DNA of 37,746 nucleotides from Acidobacteriota bacterium (GCA_014894455.1 JADBLN010000104.1:1-37746), one strand, 5' to 3'. Positions 13,759 through 37,746 are shown, counted from the first letter of the stretch. Numbers and translations are program-made. The notes: generated by a model not told the origin, from the sequence alone.

Positions 13759-14124
13759 ATGATTCTCGAAACACTCCAGGCCGTCGGCGGGATCCCGGCC
13801 GCGGATCCGTCTCATGTTTATTTGAGCGCTCCATTGATCGGGCTCATCGTCGCAAACGTCGCTCAAATCTCCCTCGGGGCGGTAAGCTTTTTTACGAAAA
13901 AAAAACGGGCCCGACATATTCATTCCGCGGCCGAGATCGTCGGCCTCGATTGCGCCGCGATCGCGAGAAACGCCGCGCGCGTCGAGGACCTCGATCCGCG
14001 CGTCCGGATCCTGGAGGCCGCTTATTCGGCGCTCTTGAAAGCGAACGAGGACGGCCGGCGCGAAAACCGCGAGGATCATCAATTGATTTTTAAGCTCCTC
14101 CGAGGCGGACCGGATCCTGAATGA
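13759..14124 (+). CDS. single-pass membrane protein of the lysis region
   Basis: 121 residues, AAGGGA before the ATG. One transmembrane helix at about 22-46 is followed by KKKRAR, predicting a cytoplasmic helical C-terminal domain (about 50-115) with heptad-like spacing (VRILEAAYSALLKAN). It could be a holin/antiholin or a tail/lysis accessory; the orientation argues against a periplasmic spanin. It overlaps the ParB-like gene by ATGA, linking the lysis and packaging regions in one transcript. Confidence 0.6.
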   Translation: MILETLQAVGGIPAADPSHVYLSAPLIGLIVANVAQISLGAVSFFTKKKRARHIHSAAEIVGLDCAAIARNAARVEDLDPRVRILEAAYSALLKANEDGRRENREDHQLIFKLLRGGPDPE

Positions 14125-14708
14125 AATTAATCAAAGTCTCGATCGACCTCCTCGACGTCTGGAAAGATAATCCGCGCGATATAAAAACGGTCGATTACGC
14201 GAGGCTCAAAAAACAAATCCTCCGGCTCGGGCTTTATAAACCGCTCGTTTGTTTTCTCGAAAAAGGTCGATACATTGTCCTCGGCGGAAATATGCGGCTC
14301 CTCATCCTCCGCGAGATCGGGATCCGCGAGGTCGAGATCTCCGTCGTCGACGCGAAAACAAAAGCGCGCCGGCTCGAATACGCGCTCTCGGATAACGATC
14401 GCGCCGGCGAATATATCGAGGACAAACTTGTCGAGCTCGTCTTCCCCTTTCAAAAAGAGATCGAGCTCCAGGATTACAAGGTCGACCTCCTCTCTCCGAT
14501 CGGTCTCGATCAATTATTAAACGGCCGGCAACCGACGGAGGATTTCGATCAAGAGCTCGCTGACGGCGAGGGCGACGAGGATGTTTCGATCGAGATCGTC
14601 GTTCCGGTAAAACATGAAAAGACGGTCCTCGATTGGCTCCGGAACGGTGAAGCAAACTCGGCCGCGGGCCGCGGGATCGGAGTCCTCCGAAGATGCGAAT
14701 TGCTTTAA
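14121..14708 (+). CDS. ParB-like N-domain protein
   Basis: 195 residues. Residues 1-90 match the ParB/Srx-like domain of phage proteins found near terminases: LLDVWKDNPRDI, then LKKQILRLGLYKPLVCF, LGGNMRLLILREIG, and EYALSDND. The LGGNMR element replaces the GERR motif of chromosomal ParB, and no DNA-binding helix-turn-helix of true ParB is clear. The C-terminus is acidic. Phage ParB-like proteins may act as nucleases, NTP-binding switches or base-modifying enzymes. The gene overlaps the radical SAM gene by 16 bases, so the two may work together. Confidence 0.75.
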   Translation: MKLIKVSIDLLDVWKDNPRDIKTVDYARLKKQILRLGLYKPLVCFLEKGRYIVLGGNMRLLILREIGIREVEISVVDAKTKARRLEYALSDNDRAGEYIEDKLVELVFPFQKEIELQDYKVDLLSPIGLDQLLNGRQPTEDFDQELADGEGDEDVSIEIVVPVKHEKTVLDWLRNGEANSAAGRGIGVLRRCELL

Positions 14709-15871
14709 TTGACTCACGCGCGACGAGGTCGATCTATCCTCTCGCCCTCTTAAAGCTTGGCGCTTGGAGAAAACGACTCGGCGATAAATGTAAACTATTC
14801 GCCCGGGAGATACCGCGCCGCGGCCTTTATGATGAAATATGGATCTCGACTCTTTTCACGTTCGAGATCCCGGAGGCCCTCGCCCTCGTCCAGGCCGCAA
14901 AAAAAACCGGGGCCCGCGTCGTCGTCGGCGGGATCGCCGCGTCGCTTATGCCGGAGCCTTTCGAGCGCGCCGGCGCCAAGGTCCGACGCGGACTCATCCC
15001 GGAGGCCGAGCTCGGGATCCCGGATTATTCGCTCCTCCCGGATCCGCCGACGATCGTCATATCTCATACCTCGCGCGGGTGTGTTCGGAAATGCGGCTTC
15101 TGCATGGTTAAAGACTTGGAGCCCGAATATAAAAACATCCCGGATTGGCCGCGAACTATCCCGGCCGGCGCGAAAAAAATAATCTTCTTTGATAATAATT
15201 GGCTCGCGAAACCGATCGAGGCGATCCGGGCCGACGTCGACGAGATAAAAAAACTCCAGGCCCGCGGCCTCCGGAAAATAGATTTTAATCAAGCGCTCGA
15301 TTGCCGGCTCTTGACGGAGGAGCTCGCGGATCTCGTCGCGACGCTTCCTCACGATCCGATACGATTCGCCTTTGACGGTTTACATGAGGACGGATATTTT
15401 CAAAGGGCGATCGAGCGGATCGTCAAGCGAAAACGTCAAACGATCGTTTCGGACGTCCTCTATAATTTTACGGACTCGCCCGAGGATTTTTATTATCGGA
15501 TCCGGGAGATCGCGAAGCTCGAAGAAAAATATAAATGTCATATTGTCGCTTTTCCCATGCGATATCAACCGATCCTCTCGTCGGATCCGAACCGAGAATA
15601 TACAGGCCCAAAATGGACGCCTCGCGAGCGCTCGATCACTCAAAAAATCGTTTCAAAGCATAGCGGCGGCCGCGGGACGTTTTCGTTTACCGGCGGGCCC
15701 GAGCGGAGCCCGCTCGCCGAGCTCGAATATTGGCTCGGAAAAACGCCGGCGGACTTTCGCCGGCTCCTCAATTATCCGAACGTCCGAAAACTTATAGACG
15801 TTCGAGTCGCGCGCCTCCGGATCAAGCGGGCTAAGCTCCGGATCGCGACGCGAGCGGAGGCGATCGGATGA
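14693..15871 (+). CDS. radical SAM enzyme with N-terminal Rossmann (B12-binding-like) domain
   Basis: 392 residues. Residues 1-115 resemble the cobalamin-binding-like domain of such enzymes: MRIALIDSR, an ALLKLGAWRKRLG helix, DEIWISTLFTF, and GARVVVGGIAAS. No DxHxxG is present, so cobalamin binding is doubtful. The [4Fe-4S]/SAM motif is intact: C130-x3-C134-x2-C137 (RGCVRKCGFC). A TIM-barrel-like part follows (FFDNNWL, DFNQALDCRLLT, RFAFDGLHED). The C-terminal 100 residues are basic, perhaps for nucleic acid. The substrate is unknown: a nucleotide, DNA, tRNA or a protein are all possible. It is rarely seen between ParB-like and terminase genes. It overlaps both neighbours, so it is made with the packaging genes. 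Confidence 0.8.
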   Translation: MRIALIDSRATRSIYPLALLKLGAWRKRLGDKCKLFAREIPRRGLYDEIWISTLFTFEIPEALALVQAAKKTGARVVVGGIAASLMPEPFERAGAKVRRGLIPEAELGIPDYSLLPDPPTIVISHTSRGCVRKCGFCMVKDLEPEYKNIPDWPRTIPAGAKKIIFFDNNWLAKPIEAIRADVDEIKKLQARGLRKIDFNQALDCRLLTEELADLVATLPHDPIRFAFDGLHEDGYFQRAIERIVKRKRQTIVSDVLYNFTDSPEDFYYRIREIAKLEEKYKCHIVAFPMRYQPILSSDPNREYTGPKWTPRERSITQKIVSKHSGGRGTFSFTGGPERSPLAELEYWLGKTPADFRRLLNYPNVRKLIDVRVARLRIKRAKLRIATRAEAIG

Positions 15872-21043: not shown

Positions 21044-21403
21044 ATGATTACCGGGATTCAAATGCGATCGGACAAATATCGCTCAATGACGATTACCGTC
21101 CCTTCGGGCGGAGTCGTCGGCGGAGCGATGAACCTTATCGGGGCGACCGTCGTCGTCTATTTCGAGACGAAAGCGGTCGGGCTCCTTGTCGCCGGCGTTA
21201 TCGGATGCGACAAAATTCTCCTCCCCAAAATCGCGGGCTCCGCGCTCGCGATGGCGCAAGGATCGAAAGTCTATTACGACAATTCCGCGAAGGCGGTCAC
21301 GCCGACGATCGGCGCGAATACGCTTTGTGGCCGGGTTATCGAGGCGGCTCTCGGCCCGGACGCGACGGTCCTTGTCGACTTCAACGGGACGGTCCAGGCT
21401 TAA
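21044..21403 (+). CDS. DUF2190-type capsid decoration protein
   Basis: 119 residues from the ATG at 21044, AAGGAGG upstream. The longer in-frame reading lies inside the scaffold gene. It has the DUF2190 pattern: GGVVGGAMNLIGATVVVYF, a GVIGCDKILLPKIAGSALA stretch, then GSKVYYDNSAKAVTP and LCGRVIEAALGPDATVLVDFNG. Proteins of this type are small beta-barrels that cement the outside of HK97-fold capsids. It comes immediately before the major capsid gene, as is usual. Its leader (AAGGAGGTTTTCAAAA) is nearly the same as that of the tail-tube gene at 29138. Confidence 0.8.
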   Translation: MITGIQMRSDKYRSMTITVPSGGVVGGAMNLIGATVVVYFETKAVGLLVAGVIGCDKILLPKIAGSALAMAQGSKVYYDNSAKAVTPTIGANTLCGRVIEAALGPDATVLVDFNGTVQA

Positions 21404-21436: not shown

Positions 21437-22441
21437 ATGAGAAAAATATTTTCGGATCTCTCGAAACTCGATTTCTCCTCGCCCTCGGGACGGGAGAAAA
21501 TCTTCGCGGCCGTTCAATACTTCGCCTCCGGCGGGCCCGCAAAGGCCGAGGCCGAGCGTTATCGAAAAGCGCTCCAGGCTTTCGGCGCAAGCGGAGACTT
21601 CCCGGCCGCGGCACTCCAGGTCCTTGAAAAATTCCACGCGACGCCGGCCTACGACATGGGCTATGAGGAAATTTTCGATATCCGCGACTTTAACGGGACG
21701 ACCGAAAGCGGATTCGAGATCCTCGACGTCGAGGACGGCCTCACTTTCCGCGAGGTCCCGAACGGCGAAAAGGCCCATATCTTCAAAATGGCGGGCTCGA
21801 AAACGACCGTCAATTTTGGGCTCTATGGCGGCGGGCTCGGATGGCTCCGGACCTTGATCGATGATAAAAAGTTCTGGACGCTTGAGGACTCCGCGATCGC
21901 CTTTGTCAATAAGGCCGCGGCTCACAAAGCGGAATGTTTTTATGCCCTTGTCGACGCGCTCGGCGTCGGGCATAACGTCGCGTGGCAATTGCCGGATCCG
22001 GCGGCTCTCGCGAACACGGCCGAAACCTATACGGCGAACCGCGACGCGCAAACCTTGAACCTCGCCGCTCAAACGATCCTCCTCGCGATCGCCGACAAGG
22101 GCTATGGAGTCACGCCGGCGAATGCTCAACTCGTTGTTCTGACTCCTCTCCAAATGGTCGGCCGGCTTAACCGCGCGCTCTCGCTCATGCTCCAATCGGT
22201 TTCCGGCTCGGCGACTTTTGCGTCCTATAAATTCCGACTCGTCCCGACGACGATGCTCTTGTCGGCCGCGGACTATTATGTCGGGATCCCGAAGCTCAAA
22301 GCGAAGGGCGGGACGCGGATGAACCTCACGATTTTCAACCAATTCGACGCGACCGCTTACGCGGATATCGCCGTCGGATGGTCCCGCTTCGGCGGAGCTC
22401 TCGCGGATCAGGATCAATTCGCGCGGTGTAAATCCGTCTAA
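21437..22441 (+). CDS. major capsid protein
   Basis: 334 residues, GAAGGAAAC upstream. It lies between the decoration protein and a terminator, in the position and length range of a HK97-fold shell protein. The N-terminal helix (1-60) is charged, then a beta-rich domain (about 70-130, FDIRDFNGTTESGFEILDVEDGLTF, KTTVNFGLYGGG) and a helical/strand core ending in VGIPKLKAKGG and an acidic DQDQF close. No cleavage site is evident. The family is not named with certainty; the role is inferred from order and pattern. A terminator right after it would favour high expression of the capsid over downstream genes. Confidence 0.75.
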   Translation: MRKIFSDLSKLDFSSPSGREKIFAAVQYFASGGPAKAEAERYRKALQAFGASGDFPAAALQVLEKFHATPAYDMGYEEIFDIRDFNGTTESGFEILDVEDGLTFREVPNGEKAHIFKMAGSKTTVNFGLYGGGLGWLRTLIDDKKFWTLEDSAIAFVNKAAAHKAECFYALVDALGVGHNVAWQLPDPAALANTAETYTANRDAQTLNLAAQTILLAIADKGYGVTPANAQLVVLTPLQMVGRLNRALSLMLQSVSGSATFASYKFRLVPTTMLLSAADYYVGIPKLKAKGGTRMNLTIFNQFDATAYADIAVGWSRFGGALADQDQFARCKSV

Positions 22442-22463
22442 TCCTGACAATGACTTTTTCGCG

Positions 22464-22503
22464 CGGGCGAGGGGGGGAGACGCCTCCTCGCCCGTTTCTT
22501 TTT
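22464..22503 (+). terminator. rho-independent terminator after the capsid gene
   Basis: CGGGCGAGG (22464-22472) pairs with CCTCGCCCG (22486-22494) around a 13-base loop, followed by TTTCTTTTT. It separates the abundant head proteins from the glycosyltransferase cassette, whose first ribosome site follows directly. Read-through must occur, since I see no promoter between them. Confidence 0.8.
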
Positions 22504-22513
22504 AAGGTGGAAA

Positions 22514-24031
22514 ATGGATAACGAAGTCCTTACGATGCGATCCTGTCGCGTCCGGCAAATCATGGAACACTCGAAGGCGGTCCGCGAGGCCGCGGCCGCG
22601 TCGAGGACTTGGGCCTCGCTTGTCCGGCAAGGATCGGACCTCCCTCAAGTCCGATCGTTTACCGGAGTCCAGGACGGCGCTTGGAAAGGTCGCCGATGTT
22701 TCATTATCGCCGGCGGGCCCTCGCTCCGAGGCTTTGATTATTCCCGGCTCCAGGGCGAGCGGACGATCGCGATTAATAAAGCGATTCGCGAGGTCCCTTT
22801 TGCGGATATCCTTTTCGGGATGGATTATCAATTTATCGAATGGATCCAAAAGGGCGACCTCGGAGAGGATTACCGTCGGGCTTATTCTAATTTTACCGGG
22901 GAGAAAATTTGGCTCAATTTAACCGGCGCGCCTTACGCTTATCCGCCCGACGTCCGCGTCCTCCTCGGCGCGGGAGAGATCGGATGGACGCGACGCCTCG
23001 CCGACGGCCTCTATCATGGAAACAATTCTGGTTACGCGGCGATTAATCTCGCCCTCGTCCTCGGCGCGGATCCGATCATCCTCCTCGGATACGACATGAA
23101 GCTCGGCCCGAATGGAGCCTCTCATTATCACAAGGGATATCCGACTCCGATGTTTCCGGACGCGCTCCCGACGTTTAAAAGCTCGATCGAGGCCGGCGCT
23201 CGCGAGCTCCCGGCCGGCGCGCCGCAAATCTTGAACGCGAATAAGGACTCCGCCCTCCGATGCTTCCCTTTTGTCTCGACCTCGAAGATCCTCCCGCGGA
23301 CGAAAACTCCCGGGACGGAGCCCGCTTGGAAGGTCGTCTCTTTTTATACGACCGGGACCGGATATGAAAACGAGATAAAAAAATTACAAGCCTCGCTCGA
23401 TCGCCTCTCGATCCCGTATCATTTTTTCCCGGTCGAGCCTCGCGGATCCTGGAGGGCGAACCTAAATTATAAAAGCGAGATTATCCTCCAGGCTTTCGAT
23501 ATGTTTCCGAAAAAGGATATTGTTTTTATTGACGCGGACGCGGTCGTCCGGAGATATCCGGAGCTTTTCGACAAGCTCTCCGAAGATCATCAATACGACG
23601 TCGCCGCTCATTTTCATCCTTATCGAGGAAACGAGATCCCGGGCGGATCGCTTCTTTCCGGGACGCTTTGGTTTCAAAATTCAGAGCGCGGGCGGGAGCT
23701 CGTCCGGACTTGGAACGAGATCGGCGCCGAAAACAAAACGATCCGTCATCAACATTGTTTGAGGCTCGCGATCGAAAAGCTCTCGGGCGAGGGTCGATAC
23801 GTTTTTATCTGTCGCCTCCCGCGCGAGTATACTTTGATCTTCGATTATTATCGGGGCGAGGAAGTCCTCGCCGTCGTCGAGCATTTCCAAGCGTCGCGCC
23901 GGCTCCGAGCTCAAGTCGGGACGGGCGAGCCTCTCGTCGACTCTAATTTCACGACGATCCCGAAGCCCGAAATAAAAACAAAAACGAGCAAGGGAAGAAA
24001 AACAAAGACCGAAAGGAAAAATCGGAAATGA
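22514..24031 (+). CDS. DUF115-like / glycosyltransferase fusion
   Basis: 505 residues. Residues about 57-240 resemble DUF115 (MptE/Maf-like, found in flagellin glycosylation): GRRCFIIAGGPSLRGFD, AINKAI, and NNSGYAAINLALVLGA, ILLGYDMK with HYHKGY following. Residues about 275-450 look like a GT-A glycosyltransferase: WKVVSFYTTGTGYENEIKKL, a DIVFIDADAVVRR strand with a DAD metal motif, and SGTLWFQNSERG. The tail is Lys/Thr-rich. The likely role is transfer of a sugar, perhaps nonulosonic-type for the first domain, onto a virion protein or glycan. The start follows AAGGTGG. It overlaps the next gene by ATGA. Confidence 0.75.
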   Translation: MDNEVLTMRSCRVRQIMEHSKAVREAAAASRTWASLVRQGSDLPQVRSFTGVQDGAWKGRRCFIIAGGPSLRGFDYSRLQGERTIAINKAIREVPFADILFGMDYQFIEWIQKGDLGEDYRRAYSNFTGEKIWLNLTGAPYAYPPDVRVLLGAGEIGWTRRLADGLYHGNNSGYAAINLALVLGADPIILLGYDMKLGPNGASHYHKGYPTPMFPDALPTFKSSIEAGARELPAGAPQILNANKDSALRCFPFVSTSKILPRTKTPGTEPAWKVVSFYTTGTGYENEIKKLQASLDRLSIPYHFFPVEPRGSWRANLNYKSEIILQAFDMFPKKDIVFIDADAVVRRYPELFDKLSEDHQYDVAAHFHPYRGNEIPGGSLLSGTLWFQNSERGRELVRTWNEIGAENKTIRHQHCLRLAIEKLSGEGRYVFICRLPREYTLIFDYYRGEEVLAVVEHFQASRRLRAQVGTGEPLVDSNFTTIPKPEIKTKTSKGRKTKTERKNRK

Positions 24032-24675
24032 ATTTATCCGCCGTCGTCGTTACTTATCGCCGGCTCGCCTCGATCGATCGGATCCTTGCCGCTTGGCTCG
24101 CCGAGACTCCGGACGTTTGGCTTTGCGATTGCTCGGCCGCGGGCGTCAAGACGGCGCTCCCGGTCAACATTATTCGGGCCGTCCCGGATCCCGGAAACCG
24201 CCTCCGCCATGCGGTCGCGCTTTTAACCGCCGGCGACTTCGTCGTCAAGGCCGACGACGACGTCCTCCCGCGGCCCGGGATTGGAAACGACTTCGTTCGC
24301 TTTCAACTGTCGAGCGGGCCGGCGATCCTCGGGATCCATGGCCGAGTATTTAAGGGGCCCGGATATTATAATCAAACGAAGCTTTACGGATCGAAGGAAA
24401 TAGCGGACGTCCAGGCGGTCGACTTTGTCGGCGTCATGACTTGCGCTCCGCGGGCCCTCCTCCCGCTCGACCTCCGCGGGTGTGCCTCCGCGATCGAAGA
24501 TCTCTTTTGGCAAATGGGGGCCGCTCGGTCCGCGAAAAAGTTTGTTATCCCGACGGATAAATTTCAACATTTATCCGAGAGCAAGGACTCCGGCCGGCTT
24601 TGCGGGACGCCGGAGCAAAAGCAATTTCGGGCCGATTATTACGAGAAAATGTTTCGGAAATATTATACGAAATGA
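24028..24675 (+). CDS. GT2-like glycosyltransferase
   Basis: 215 residues, shorter than most. MNLSAVVVTYRRLASIDRILAAW is a typical GT-A N-terminus and KADDDVLPRP carries the DDD/DxD metal-nucleotide motif (about residues 72-75). The later part has an acceptor-side pattern with AIEDLFWQMG, a possible catalytic E-D pair. It probably transfers one sugar from a nucleotide donor. It is coupled by ATGA to both neighbours. Donor and acceptor are unknown. Confidence 0.75.
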   Translation: MNLSAVVVTYRRLASIDRILAAWLAETPDVWLCDCSAAGVKTALPVNIIRAVPDPGNRLRHAVALLTAGDFVVKADDDVLPRPGIGNDFVRFQLSSGPAILGIHGRVFKGPGYYNQTKLYGSKEIADVQAVDFVGVMTCAPRALLPLDLRGCASAIEDLFWQMGAARSAKKFVIPTDKFQHLSESKDSGRLCGTPEQKQFRADYYEKMFRKYYTK

Positions 24676-25604
24676 AGAAAATAACGATCGTTACAAACCG
24701 GCTCGACAATCGCCATAATCCGACGAACGGGATCCGCGTCGGCCGAGCGATCGAGCGGCTCGGATATCTCGTCTCCGTCGTCGAGCATGACGCTTTGAGC
24801 GCCGGCCTCTCGGAGATCGCCGCGGCGGATCTCGTCCTCGCTTTTGGGACTTTGCTTTATCCTCGGAATATTGAGCAAGCGGATATTATCGCGCGATCGA
24901 AACGGCCGCGGACGCCTTTCGCGCTCTGGTATTTCGACGCCGCAAATCCCGACTTTGATCATAGTCGTCGAAAATTCGAGGCGCTCCTCGCGGTCGCTCC
25001 GTCGCTCGATTGGCTCTTTACAACCGATCACTCTTTCCCCTGGGAAAAATATGTTCCGAAATATAAACATTTACTCCAGGGCGTCGACCTCTCGGATTAT
25101 CGGGCGATCCCGCCGGCGTCCGGCCGGCCTTCCGTCGACGTCGTTTTCTCTGGAGGATGCCGCGGCTCTTTTTTAAATCGTCGAAAAATGCTCGACTTAA
25201 TCGCGGCTCGTTTTTCTCTTGTAACTTACGGGAGCGACTCGCCCGAGTATGTCCACGGCCGAAGATTTATCGAAGCTTATCAGGACGCGCGCGTCGCGTT
25301 TGTCCCTGCTCCTCCGATCGAGGTCCCGAATTATTGGAGCAATCGAATTTACCTCGCGGCCGGGACCGGGATCCCTTGCGTCGTCGGATGGGCTCCCGGG
25401 CTCGAAGCTCATTACGCCGGCGGCTCCGAGGTCGTCTATTTTCACGACTCGGCGGAAATGCTTCGGGAGATCGACCTCCTCCTCAAGAGTCCCGGGGCCC
25501 GGGCCCGGATCGGAGCGGCCGGCCGAGCGCGAACGCTTCGAGATCACACTTACGAGGCCCGAGCTCGCGAGCTCATCGCCTCGATCGGAGGGCCCACGAT
25601 ATGA
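24672..25604 (+). CDS. GT-B glycosyltransferase, CgeB/GT1-like
   Basis: 310 residues from the ATG at 24672 (ATGA overlap). The N-terminal Rossmann half (KKITIVTNRLDNRHNPTNGIRVGRAIERLGY) and a DWLFTTDHSF region precede the donor-binding half. The C-terminus has the PF13524-like pattern: YWSNRIYLAAGTGIPCVV, a GG..VVYFHDSAEML stretch, and GAAGRARTLRDHTYEARARELI. This family includes CgeB of spore coat maturation. It probably transfers a nucleotide-activated sugar. Third gene of the cassette. Confidence 0.8.
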   Translation: MKKITIVTNRLDNRHNPTNGIRVGRAIERLGYLVSVVEHDALSAGLSEIAAADLVLAFGTLLYPRNIEQADIIARSKRPRTPFALWYFDAANPDFDHSRRKFEALLAVAPSLDWLFTTDHSFPWEKYVPKYKHLLQGVDLSDYRAIPPASGRPSVDVVFSGGCRGSFLNRRKMLDLIAARFSLVTYGSDSPEYVHGRRFIEAYQDARVAFVPAPPIEVPNYWSNRIYLAAGTGIPCVVGWAPGLEAHYAGGSEVVYFHDSAEMLREIDLLLKSPGARARIGAAGRARTLRDHTYEARARELIASIGGPTI

Positions 25605-26164
25605 CGGCCGACGAATATTTAAAACATTGGAAGGGCCGCGAAATTTGGAAGCGCCTTGTCCTCCCTCATCATCAAGAGCGGCTCGGGCGGTGTGCCTCTT
25701 ATCTCCCGGATCCGGCCGGCAACGTCGAGGGCTTCGTCGACGTCGGGAGCGCCTTCGGGCATTCAACCTCGATCCTCCGAGGCTTTCATCCTGGACGATG
25801 GACGGGCGTCGACTTTTCCCGGGAGGCGATCGATCGAGCGGCCCGGACCTTTGCGGATATTATTTTTGTCTATCTTGAAAAGGTCGAGGACCTCGCCCTC
25901 CTCCCGCGTTTCGCCGGCGTCGTTTGCTCTGAAGTTATCGAGCACGTTCCGGACGACGCGGCGCTCATCCGCGGACTTTGGGCGATAACCGGCGGGACGC
26001 TTGTCATCACGACTCCGAAACGGGCCGTTGACGATCCGGGCCATTTGAGATTATATTCAAGGGAGGCGCTCGATAAGCTCCTCCAGGACGCCGGCGTCCG
26101 GGATGTTCGGATCGAGACGAGTTCGCGATTTTATTTCGTCGTCGCTCGACGAGGGGAGGCTTAA
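25601..26164 (+). CDS. class I SAM-dependent methyltransferase
   Basis: 187 residues from the ATG at 25601 (ATGA overlap with the GT-B gene). Motif I is FVDVGSAFGHST, motif II is WTGVDFSREAIDRA, and SEVIEHVPDD matches motif IV/post-motif of small-molecule and sugar methyltransferases. TPKRAVDDPGHLRLYS is also typical of such enzymes. There is no DPPY/NPPF, so it is not an adenine- or cytosine-N DNA methylase. In this cassette it probably methylates the transferred sugar. Confidence 0.8.
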   Translation: MTADEYLKHWKGREIWKRLVLPHHQERLGRCASYLPDPAGNVEGFVDVGSAFGHSTSILRGFHPGRWTGVDFSREAIDRAARTFADIIFVYLEKVEDLALLPRFAGVVCSEVIEHVPDDAALIRGLWAITGGTLVITTPKRAVDDPGHLRLYSREALDKLLQDAGVRDVRIETSSRFYFVVARRGEA

Positions 26165-26166
26165 TT

Positions 26167-26628
26167 ATGGCGATCGGATGGATCTCAAACCTCGCGGAGG
26201 CCGTAACCTATTTTCGGACGGAGCGCCTTGAGTCAACTTTTTGGGACGCTTTAACTCACGTCTCCGGCGGAAAGGACGAGCGCGTCGCGGCGCTCCTCCA
26301 GGCTTACAACCGGATCCGGACCGCGGCCGGCGTCGCGATCCCGACGTCGCCCTCGGCCGCGGAGCTCGCGGAGCTCAAACTCGCTCAATTGGAAATGGCT
26401 TATTATCTCGCGGGTCACGCGGAGGATGAGGATAAGCGCCTCGGCCTCCAGGCTCAAAACGTCGTCTCCGCCGGATACGTTCAAGAAACATACAAGCTCG
26501 ACCGGCCCGGGACGCTCCCGCCGGCGATCCTCGCGCTCCTCGCGAGCTTTATTTCGGCGCGGTCGATCATCGCGGTCGATCTCCGGCGCGACGAAAATCT
26601 CGACGTCGACGGGATCCCGAACGAATAA
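26167..26628 (+). CDS. head-tail connector / adaptor candidate
   Basis: 153 residues, two bases after the methyltransferase stop, GGGGAGG upstream. It is mostly helical, with FRTERLESTFWDAL, EMAYYLAGHAEDEDKRLGLQAQNVVSAG and PPAILALLASF, like the small helical adaptor proteins that dock under the portal. It resumes the virion order broken by the sugar cassette: connector, minor capsid, stopper, completion. The assignment is by position and pattern. Confidence 0.6.
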   Translation: MAIGWISNLAEAVTYFRTERLESTFWDALTHVSGGKDERVAALLQAYNRIRTAAGVAIPTSPSAAELAELKLAQLEMAYYLAGHAEDEDKRLGLQAQNVVSAGYVQETYKLDRPGTLPPAILALLASFISARSIIAVDLRRDENLDVDGIPNE

Positions 26629-26633
26629 ATAAA

Positions 26634-27569
26634 ATGGCGACGAAAGCTCTCGGCCTCATCCCGGTAAAAAATCGGGTGAAGCTTATCGAGACGGCTTACG
26701 GGCGGGCCGGCGATCGGCTCGTCGGGATCCTCTCGGAGCTCAATCCGGCGACCTTTACCGCGGCGATCGGCGGGCGGGCCCGCGGCCGCGTCAATGCGAT
26801 CGTCCGGGATCTCGACGCTTTCGCCGGCAAATGGGCCCGGGCCGCGGTCCGCGAGGCTTACGCGGAGGGATCGACCTTCGCCCGGACGAGGCTTGAAAAT
26901 ATCGGAGCAGAGAAAAAACCGCCGGCGAAATTCAATCCGGGCCGACATGAGCGGGCGATTGCGGCGCTCGTCTCCAGAACGGCCGGCGACCTCCTCAAGG
27001 CAAATCGAACGATCGCGACCTCGGCCGGGAAATATCTCTCCCTCCTCTCGCTCGCGGCCGCGGAGGTCCGAAAGGTCGAGGCTTTCGAGGAGGTCGAGGT
27101 CGAGGCCTTCGCCGACGCGACGCTCGGGAAAGGGATCAAGCGGATCGTTAAGCGCTCGATCGGCGGCGGGCCCGACGCCGTTTCCTCGCTCGCGCGCGGG
27201 ACGATCTCCCGGATGATAAAATCGTATCTCTTGAAAAAAATCGCCGGCGCGGATTTCATAACGATTAAGGATCGACATTATTCTTTAAAGAGTTATTCGG
27301 AAATGCTCGCGCGGACTGGCCTCCGGGAGGCCCAAACGAAAGCGACGAAAGAGCTATGCGATCAATACGATAACGACCTCGTCCAATTTTCGCAACATGA
27401 CGAGCCTTGCGGCGATTGCGAACAATACGAGGGCGAGGTTTTTTCGATCTCCGGAAAGTCCGATAAATATCCGGAGCTCCCGCCCGAGGCCGAGCCTCCC
27501 GTTCATCCGAATTGCGAACATAATTTAAATCCGACCTCGGAAAATGCTTTATCCTGGAGGTCGCGGTAA
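26634..27569 (+). CDS. phage minor capsid protein (Mu F / type 2-like)
   Basis: 311 residues. The first 200 are helical and basic. The C-terminal part has the familiar pattern of minor head proteins: SYSEMLARTGLREAQTKATKE, DNDLVQFSQHDEPCGDCEQYEGEVFSISG, and a VHPNCEHNL Cys/His end that probably binds zinc (CGDC with HPNCEH). Proteins of this type are in few copies inside or on the head near the portal. It overlaps the next gene by TAATG. Confidence 0.8.
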   Translation: MATKALGLIPVKNRVKLIETAYGRAGDRLVGILSELNPATFTAAIGGRARGRVNAIVRDLDAFAGKWARAAVREAYAEGSTFARTRLENIGAEKKPPAKFNPGRHERAIAALVSRTAGDLLKANRTIATSAGKYLSLLSLAAAEVRKVEAFEEVEVEAFADATLGKGIKRIVKRSIGGGPDAVSSLARGTISRMIKSYLLKKIAGADFITIKDRHYSLKSYSEMLARTGLREAQTKATKELCDQYDNDLVQFSQHDEPCGDCEQYEGEVFSISGKSDKYPELPPEAEPPVHPNCEHNLNPTSENALSWRSR

Positions 27570-36217: not shown

Positions 36218-37746
36218 ATGGGAAAAACTTTTGTCGAAACCCGGCCCTTCGAGGAAACGGTCCGAAAAATTCGAGGAGAGATTACCGCCATAAAACAAGG
36301 GACAAGCACGGCCGCGCCAACGCCCTCCGGAGAGCCGGTTATCGTTCCCGGAACGACCTCCGACTTTTGGAGAGGCGATAAATCCTGGCAACCTCTCACG
36401 AAAGAAAATGTCATCGATTTAAAACTCGCGAGTAGTCCGAAATTTACCTCCGTAAAAATCGCCGACTCAAACGCCTCTCATCACTTGGGGTTTGTTTGGA
36501 ATGAGGACCGGACGGCCGATCAGACCTTGAATTTGATAACCGGAGCGGCGGATCGAATAATCACGCTTCAAGGAAATCCGACACTCGCGGATTGGTTTGA
36601 TCAAACGGTCAAGATTGCCTCCGGGCCGTCGTTCGATCACCTCCATTTGATCTCTGGAGGGGCCGGCCTTTCGTTGACCCCGTATTCGAGTGCTTCGGAG
36701 GGATCTCTTCACCTCCAAAGTTCCGTCGCAAATTCAATGACGGCCCTTCGGATCTCGCCAAACGGGACATCTGCATATGGTTCGAGTTTTGAATTTTTTG
36801 CAACGGGGCATCCCGGAGATGCCGCTTATACAAGGCTCATCCATGTCGCCACTTCAACGGCGATGGTCATTGCCTCGGATAGCCTCGTAACGGCCGGGAA
36901 ACCGATTGGAATACGAAGCGGAACGGGGGCTTGGACTGCACTCGCGGACGCAATAACGATTAGCGCGGCCTCGCCGAGCCTTGTCACGATCCCAAATCTT
37001 GCCGTTCCCACGGCCTACACTTTGGCCGGAAATTTAAGTGGGAATTTGACTCATACCTGGGCCACTTGGTCTGCACAGACTAGTTATAATGCTTTTTGGT
37101 ATTGGGGGATTTATTTCGACGAGCCGACAAGAAAATTGACGATCCAAAACCAAAGCAACGATTCGGGTGGAAATATTTATATTCTTCCGAGTCTCACCCC
37201 GGCGGTGGGGGCGGTTTATCTTGGACTTTTAAAAATGCCGGTTGGGGGAACCGCTTTCAGGATGCCGGTTTACTCGGCCGCGAATGTTATGACCGAGCTC
37301 GCGGCCGTCGGCGCGACCGGCGAATATTTAAAAGGGAATACGGGCGCTATTCCGTCTTGGGCGACGCTGAATCAAGCGGCGGTTGCGGGACTGACGACCG
37401 GATCGAGCCCTGAATTTGTCACCGTCAAATGCTCCGCCCTGACCGATGGATATATTCCCTACCACGTTTCCGATGCGGTGGGGTTGGCGAATAGTATCAT
37501 ATCCCAGAACGCTACGGGCATCGGCATTGGGGCGGCGAGTCCGGGGGCGAAGTTGCACCTTGCATCCGATGCTGGCGGCAACTTGCGGCTTGAACGGACG
37601 AACGCAATTTACTTATCCAAGTGGGACATCGTACCAGCGCAGAACGCCGCTGGTGACCTATCATTTGTTGACCGTCTTTCTGGGGATGCAACACGGTTGA
37701 CTATTCTGGCGAGCGGCGCTGTCCTCATCGGCGCGACGGCGGCTAT
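36218..37746 (+). CDS. tail fibre / receptor-binding protein (continues at 1-108)
   Basis: Open from the ATG at 36218 to the window end and, through the 26-base junction, to the TAA at 106-108: 536 residues. The N-terminal 60 are helical, probably for attachment to the tail. The middle is a beta-rich, Gly/Ser/Thr-rich stalk-like region. Near residues 440-470 come LTDGYIPYHVSDAVG and GIGIGAASPGAKLHL, a pattern widespread in phage fibres and spikes. No autocatalytic chaperone domain is seen at the end. From about 37380 onward base use changes (CAG/CTG common, GATC rare), suggesting an acquired tip. It probably determines host range. Confidence 0.85.
   Translation, partial: MGKTFVETRPFEETVRKIRGEITAIKQGTSTAAPTPSGEPVIVPGTTSDFWRGDKSWQPLTKENVIDLKLASSPKFTSVKIADSNASHHLGFVWNEDRTADQTLNLITGAADRIITLQGNPTLADWFDQTVKIASGPSFDHLHLISGGAGLSLTPYSSASEGSLHLQSSVANSMTALRISPNGTSAYGSSFEFFATGHPGDAAYTRLIHVATSTAMVIASDSLVTAGKPIGIRSGTGAWTALADAITISAASPSLVTIPNLAVPTAYTLAGNLSGNLTHTWATWSAQTSYNAFWYWGIYFDEPTRKLTIQNQSNDSGGNIYILPSLTPAVGAVYLGLLKMPVGGTAFRMPVYSAANVMTELAAVGATGEYLKGNTGAIPSWATLNQAAVAGLTTGSSPEFVTVKCSALTDGYIPYHVSDAVGLANSIISQNATGIGIGAASPGAKLHLASDAGGNLRLERTNAIYLSKWDIVPAQNAAGDLSFVDRLSGDATRLTILASGAVLIGATAA
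37721..37746. repeat. terminal direct repeat, right copy
   Basis: Identical to bases 1-26; the fibre reading frame is kept across the join. See the left copy. The unique genome length is 37,720. Confidence 0.9.

Follow-up and report, generated by a model that had tools for sequence, protein, structure and literature searches.

Few phage systems, chiefly those of actinobacterial phages, are known to glycosylate their virions. In mycobacteriophages, glycosylation of the capsid and the tail tube involves tandem glycosyltransferases (GTs) and an O-methyltransferase (Freeman et al. 2023, cited by PMC12619734 and PMC11600133), and this kind of system is therefore already known. We investigated a cassette of four genes in a phage contig of 37,746 bp from an Acidobacteriota bacterium (GCA_014894455.1, JADBLN010000104.1:1-37746; the whole contig is referred to as the window). 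The cassette encodes a DUF115-GT fusion, two further GTs and a methyltransferase, and the initial annotation had proposed that the phage uses it to glycosylate and methylate its own virion, perhaps in evasion of host surface receptors or immunity. This proposal turned out to be the best supported: we consider the cassette best explained as an operon for virion glycosylation that occupies a variable slot in the head module, with a probability of about 0.72. The evidence includes the position of DUF115 behind the major capsid protein (MCP) gene in relatives, the carbohydrate-related content of the slot and a DUF115 divergence that tracks that of the MCP. Also in favour are the recurrent terminator behind the MCP gene, the matches of the two gene 1 domains to sialyltransferases and to the PBCV-1 capsid glycosyltransferase, the NeuB and cytidylyltransferase genes beside DUF115 in outgroup phages, the occurrence of DUF115 next to structural genes in two other phages and the lack of a flagellin gene in the host genome.

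Relatives of the locus were found by MCP alignment searches, which identified 7 genome loci and 80 viral contigs, whereas scans with single proteins returned few or no relatives; searches of phage records with genes 2 and 3 gave no match. The informative set comprised 59 non-redundant loci in which the MCP gene was followed by at least 800 bp of sequence, mostly IMG/VR contigs plus Aminicenantes metagenome-assembled genomes (MAGs); it included the window, and two loci (L037 and L039) were set aside. DUF115 started within 700 bp of the MCP stop codon in 57 of the 59 loci. Of the exceptions, L082 contained DUF115 at 744 bp, with one cupin gene inserted ahead of it, and L035 lies on a contig interrupted by runs of N, where the MCP frame extends too far. 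Two MCP relatives lay in contigs of 189 kb and 415 kb from a single Aminicenantes MAG, which belongs to the same order as the phage's bin, and others came from an Aminicenantes MAG that shares its genus with that bin. The search for the cassette at the same site in related phages, which the initial annotation had suggested, returned a first gene that is kept and a remainder of the slot that is swapped.

The 30 closed slots contained 2-13 open reading frames (ORFs) between the MCP gene and the adaptor gene. A Pfam scan of the 236 slot ORFs other than DUF115 identified GT2 in 35, cupins in 13 and many methyltransferases, and further detected Nucleotid_trans, nucleotide-sugar epimerases, sulfotransferases, radical S-adenosylmethionine (SAM) enzymes, collagen and PKD proteins; some slot ORFs encode proteins of no clear function. 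Two prophages in one Aminicenantes genome each encoded a DUF115/GT-A fusion with other enzymes behind it, including, in the slot of one of them, a Pfam-confirmed polysaccharide deacetylase. The GT-A domain was fused to DUF115 in 13 loci and was encoded by a stand-alone gene in about two dozen. In one locus (L106), homologues of DUF115, GT-A, gene 2 and gene 4 occurred in the order found in the window, and in several relatives a gene 4 homologue followed a gene 2 homologue. No gene 3 homologue was detected in any related slot, and related host genomes gave weak partial matches to gene 3 at most. Judged by these assignments, the slot behind DUF115 is hypervariable yet largely carbohydrate-related. 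The presence of a DUF115-led slot with differing sugar genes in almost all of about sixty related viruses suggests that the particles are probably coated with variable sugars.

Pairwise divergence of DUF115 was compared with that of the MCP, which gave a rank correlation of 0.46, and none of 300 label permutations reached a value as high. Cement (0.65), portal (0.64) and adaptor (0.61) proteins, together with gene 19849, fell in the range of 0.61-0.69, and lower values were obtained for gene 2 (0.29) and the GT-A domain (0.12). Because related sequences inflate the values, and TerL gives 0.06, these correlations serve as supporting evidence only. They suggest that DUF115 has been inherited largely with the capsid and follows the MCP more closely than the GT-A genes.

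Family matches and structural models confirmed all four sugar-transfer and methylation ORFs of the initial annotation, and the genes on both sides confirmed their place between the MCP gene and the head-tail genes (Table 1). Residues 65-260 of gene 1 matched phrog_4603, 'alpha-2,3-sialyltransferase', at 9.9e-29. When a profile built from 41 DUF115 domains was compared with the PDB, it matched 2p2v, 1ro7, 1ro8 and others at 2e-5 to 8e-5, and all significant matches were CstI/CstII-type sialyltransferases. Structure prediction, one of the checks proposed at the outset, returned GT-A folds for both residues 270-470 of gene 1 (model from 73 sequences; predicted local distance difference test score, pLDDT, 87) and gene 2. 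The latter had no family match; its model (pLDDT 90) resembles GT-A enzymes (e.g., KfiA, heparosan synthase; E 7e-10), and the DDD motif is invariant in its family alignment. Gene 3 matched PF13524 (Glyco_trans_1_2) at 5.4e-20, and gene 4 matched Methyltransf_23 at 1.5e-10. Solved-structure searches with the single proteins of genes 1-3 gave no match.

Table 1. Head-module and cassette features of the window.
Feature	Coordinates	Strand	Remarks
Head cement (decoration) protein	21044..21403	+	PF09956 Phage_cement_2, 2.7e-11
Major capsid protein (MCP)	21437..22441	+	334 aa; phrog_24071, 5e-12; Phage_capsid_4 weak
Intrinsic terminator between MCP and cassette	22463..22503	+	13-bp stem at 22463-22495, T-rich tail
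Gene 1, DUF115/GT42-like domain fused to GT-A domain	22514..24031	+	505 aa
Gene 1, N-terminal DUF115/GT42 (sialyltransferase-like) domain	22682..23293	+	motifs GGPSL, IAINKA, HGNNSG, LLGYDM, HYHKGY
Gene 1, C-terminal GT-A fold domain	23321..23923	+	predicted fold; best solved match PBCV-1 capsid glycosyltransferase
Gene 2, GT-A glycosyltransferase	24028..24675	+	215 aa; invariant DDD motif
Gene 3, GT-B-like glycosyltransferase	24672..25604	+	310 aa; PF13524
Gene 4, class I SAM methyltransferase	25601..26164	+	187 aa
Head-tail adaptor-like protein	26167..26628	+	phrog_4931 weak; far boundary of variable slot
Minor capsid protein 2	26634..27569	+	Phage_min_cap2, 1.2e-11

As had been annotated, the cassette genes are joined by three ATGA overlaps, which proved exact (24028, 24672 and 25601). 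Since such overlaps are frequent across the whole phage genome, they indicate an operon without distinguishing the cassette from other genes of the phage. The terminator reported ahead of the cassette was also confirmed. A post-MCP terminator with a stem of at least 9 was present at 29 of 64 MCP ends of relatives, with sequences differing among them, and a strong terminator followed nine other genes in 2 of about 390 tests. The likely role of the terminator would be to hold enzyme levels under MCP levels. We propose that, during late expression, readthrough of the terminator would give less cassette mRNA than MCP mRNA, from which four translationally coupled enzymes would be produced. The DUF115/GT42-like domain of gene 1 would probably add the first sugar to a head protein, either the MCP or the cement protein, the GT-A domain of gene 1 and the products of genes 2 and 3 would probably lengthen the glycan, and gene 4 would probably methylate it. 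With the first enzyme kept with the capsid and the downstream enzymes exchanged between phages, each phage would display a distinct, serotype-like surface glycan.

The MCP, whose identity to its relatives ranges from 28% to 72%, is the likeliest acceptor candidate. The cement gene is kept directly upstream of the MCP gene in nearly all relatives, and its product is a possible acceptor; the glycan target is probably the capsid or the cement protein. As separate observations, two relatives (L091 and L097) encode collagen-repeat proteins in the variable slot upstream of the adaptor gene, which are possible glycan acceptors or fibres, and these two together with L098, L102, L103, L074 and L090 have C-terminal MCP tails of ~37-52 residues with a recurring SGSCP motif that is absent from this phage and from the outgroup MCPs.

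Four outgroup phages (L115, L116, L118 and L119) have distant MCPs, and their DUF115 is located behind the minor capsid gene, still in the head operon. NeuB relatives were found beside DUF115 in all four (Pfam 6e-42 to 7e-49 in the three tested), cytidylyltransferase relatives were found in all four head operons, and NanE-like genes were found in three, the tested NanE match being under the Pfam cut-off. The NeuB and cytidylyltransferase genes suggest a cytidine monophosphate (CMP)-nonulosonate donor in these four phages. NeuB, cytidylyltransferase and NanE-like genes of the outgroup type were absent from the window's phage, and the cytidylyltransferase match in the host MAG was weak. A Maf enzyme is reported to accept 3-deoxy-D-manno-oct-2-ulosonic acid (KDO) (PMC11339370), so another CMP-sugar is possible as the donor. 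Nothing directly relevant to phage-encoded nonulosonic acid synthesis next to capsid genes was found in the literature searched. A broader proposal concerns the whole lineage, which is sampled mostly as uncultured viral contigs, with some members in Aminicenantes genomes. In it, a GT42-kind anchor inherited with the capsid would decorate the capsid, the hypervariable enzymes behind the anchor would determine a per-phage capsid glycan 'serotype', and distant relatives would make their own sialic-acid-like sugar; taken as a whole, we hold it tentatively, at somewhat less than an even chance.

Several results weigh against virion glycosylation by this cassette. The two loci set aside, L037 and L039, which come from MAGs labelled Deltaproteobacteria, have a related MCP without DUF115; they mark the limit of the rule that DUF115 lies behind the MCP gene, and DUF115 is not universal in the wider MCP family. 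Residues 65-260 of gene 1 matched PF01973 (MptE-like), the former DUF115/MAF model, at 4.2e-5 and 23.8 bits, and the window domain scored 26.2 bits against this model, both under the curated cut-off of 34.6; as 35 of the 41 DUF115 domain members matched this model at E 0.001 or better, the gene 1 domain is a relative of Maf/DUF115 at best. The best fold match of the GT-A domain of gene 1, PDB 2p6w/2p72 (E 8e-8; template modeling score 0.68-0.72 by target length), is described as a glycosyltransferase involved in PBCV-1 major capsid glycosylation, and for the predicted model this is a resemblance at the level of fold or superfamily. No NeuB was found in the host MAG (96% complete), for which a host sialic-acid pathway as the donor source was rejected on this ground, and the near-relative loci yielded no NeuB relative either. 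A CMP-nonulosonate donor of the usual kind is therefore not evident for this phage. C-terminal MCP tails of 25-52 residues occur in some relatives only and not in this phage, and such a tail was rejected as its acceptor. Moreover, gene neighbourhood is by itself no proof of the acceptor.

The link between DUF115 and flagellin glycosylation made in the initial annotation held in part. The relation to PF01973 stands, below its cut-off, and was sharpened to a GT42-like sialyltransferase; the host MAG contains no flagellin gene (Flagellin_N), and with flagellin and NeuB both missing from it, host flagellin is an unlikely target.

Glycosylation of a tail-tube or fibre-like protein is a version of the virion-glycosylation explanation, so that the two probabilities overlap, and we regard it as possible but doubtful. 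DUF115 adjoins structural genes elsewhere too, between the MCP and connector genes in phage D3 and behind a tail gene in CcrColossus, the latter case favouring a tail acceptor. Glycans are carried by both the capsid and the tail tube of mycobacteriophages, according to PMC12619734, and some slots contain collagen-like or PKD proteins. In relatives, however, the slot keeps its position relative to the MCP gene, and no collagen-like or PKD surface protein is encoded in the slot of the window. Such proteins in other slots are suited to the surface of a particle rather than to the chemistry of DNA, which argues against modification of the phage DNA, in which the enzymes would add sugars to modified bases and methylate them. 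In its favour, phage glycosyltransferases that act on DNA are established (PMC12619734), and radical SAM and ParB-like genes lie upstream of the terminase gene. Among the assigned genes of the window, many others being without assignment, no hydroxymethylase, thymidylate-synthase-like, base-kinase or TET-like gene was detected, in agreement with the initial annotation, which had seen no hydroxymethyl-base synthesis genes. We consider DNA modification very improbable.

Alternatively, the cassette may change a surface glycan of the host cell late in infection or in lysogeny and thereby block superinfection or re-adsorption of progeny to debris. The relatives found as prophages in the 189-kb and 415-kb Aminicenantes contigs make lysogeny likely for this group of phages. 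Sugar cassettes of such hypervariability are reminiscent of serotype-conversion loci, and the DUF115 profile weakly matches a lipooligosaccharide sialyltransferase. The cassette, however, belongs to the head operon and follows the MCP gene, the divergence of its DUF115 follows the capsid, relatives with a shifted DUF115 still have it in the head operon, and the slot families shown include no flippase, polymerase or membrane-anchored glycosyltransferase family; modification of the host surface is thus unlikely. The very high gene turnover, which includes proteins of no clear function, would also suit a recombination hot spot that gathers miscellaneous 'moron' genes without a common function. 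We find this hardly credible, given a constant first gene whose divergence follows the capsid, the predominance of carbohydrate-related enzymes among the assigned slot ORFs and a recurrent terminator, which suggests regulated expression.

The phage genome corresponds to the whole 37,746-bp contig, the 26-bp ends of which are identical (1-26 and 37721-37746), consistent with a complete, circularly assembled genome, and the phage's bin groups with Aminicenantes. Elsewhere in this genome, a radical SAM/B12-binding-like gene (14693-15871; phrog_9298, 1.5e-38) with a CxxxCxxC motif is located directly 5' of the gene for the terminase small subunit, and a ParB-like gene (14121-14708) adjoins it.

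A near-constant anchor enzyme with a variable sugar cassette in dozens of phages suggests strong diversifying selection on capsid glycans outside any animal immune system. The anchor gene behind the MCP gene provides a sequence-based way to find other glycosylated phages, and the anchor enzyme and the linked capsid gene form a small pair amenable to a co-expression test.

Like the mycobacteriophage system, this locus combines phage-encoded glycosyltransferases with a methyltransferase, which here are predicted from their genes. It differs in that a DUF115/GT42-like first gene lies directly behind the MCP gene in nearly every relative, the rest of the slot is hypervariable and the hosts are others; as far as is known, the mycobacteriophage glycosylation enzymes also differ from those described here. 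The CstI/CstII enzymes of GT42, which act on lipooligosaccharide, were the best matches of the DUF115 domain profile in the PDB, and their GxGPSL and LxGxD motifs aligned with those of the domain. In Pseudomonas phage D3, orf6.5 and orf7 are DUF115-like reading frames between the MCP and head-tail connector genes; unlike gene 1, they are short and divided between two annotated ORFs, the annotation shows no additional GT cassette, and the MCP has no detectable relation. The two overlapping D3 frames (L124, 5691-6409) jointly match one DUF115 domain, possibly as a frameshifted or split gene. The Maf nonulosonic-acid transferases of flagellin (CbMaf, PMC11339370) resemble the proposed first step in the O-glycosylation of Ser/Thr on a self-assembling surface protein by one enzyme, and in the link to the PF01973 family, whereas the phage domain is a weak match to PF01973 and the host MAG contains neither a flagellin gene nor NeuB. 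PBCV-1 A64R (PDB 2p6w, 2p72 and 2p73; PMC4691112) shares the GT-A fold of the C-terminal domain of gene 1 and belongs to a viral capsid glycosylation system that includes a methyltransferase domain. PBCV-1 is, in contrast, a eukaryotic virus with an unrelated capsid, the methyltransferase is fused in A64R and encoded by a separate gene here, and the 15-19% identity places the likeness at fold level. Within the literature searched, a capsid-linked, anchored hypervariable slot with a GT42-like anchor appears to be a new variant of these systems.

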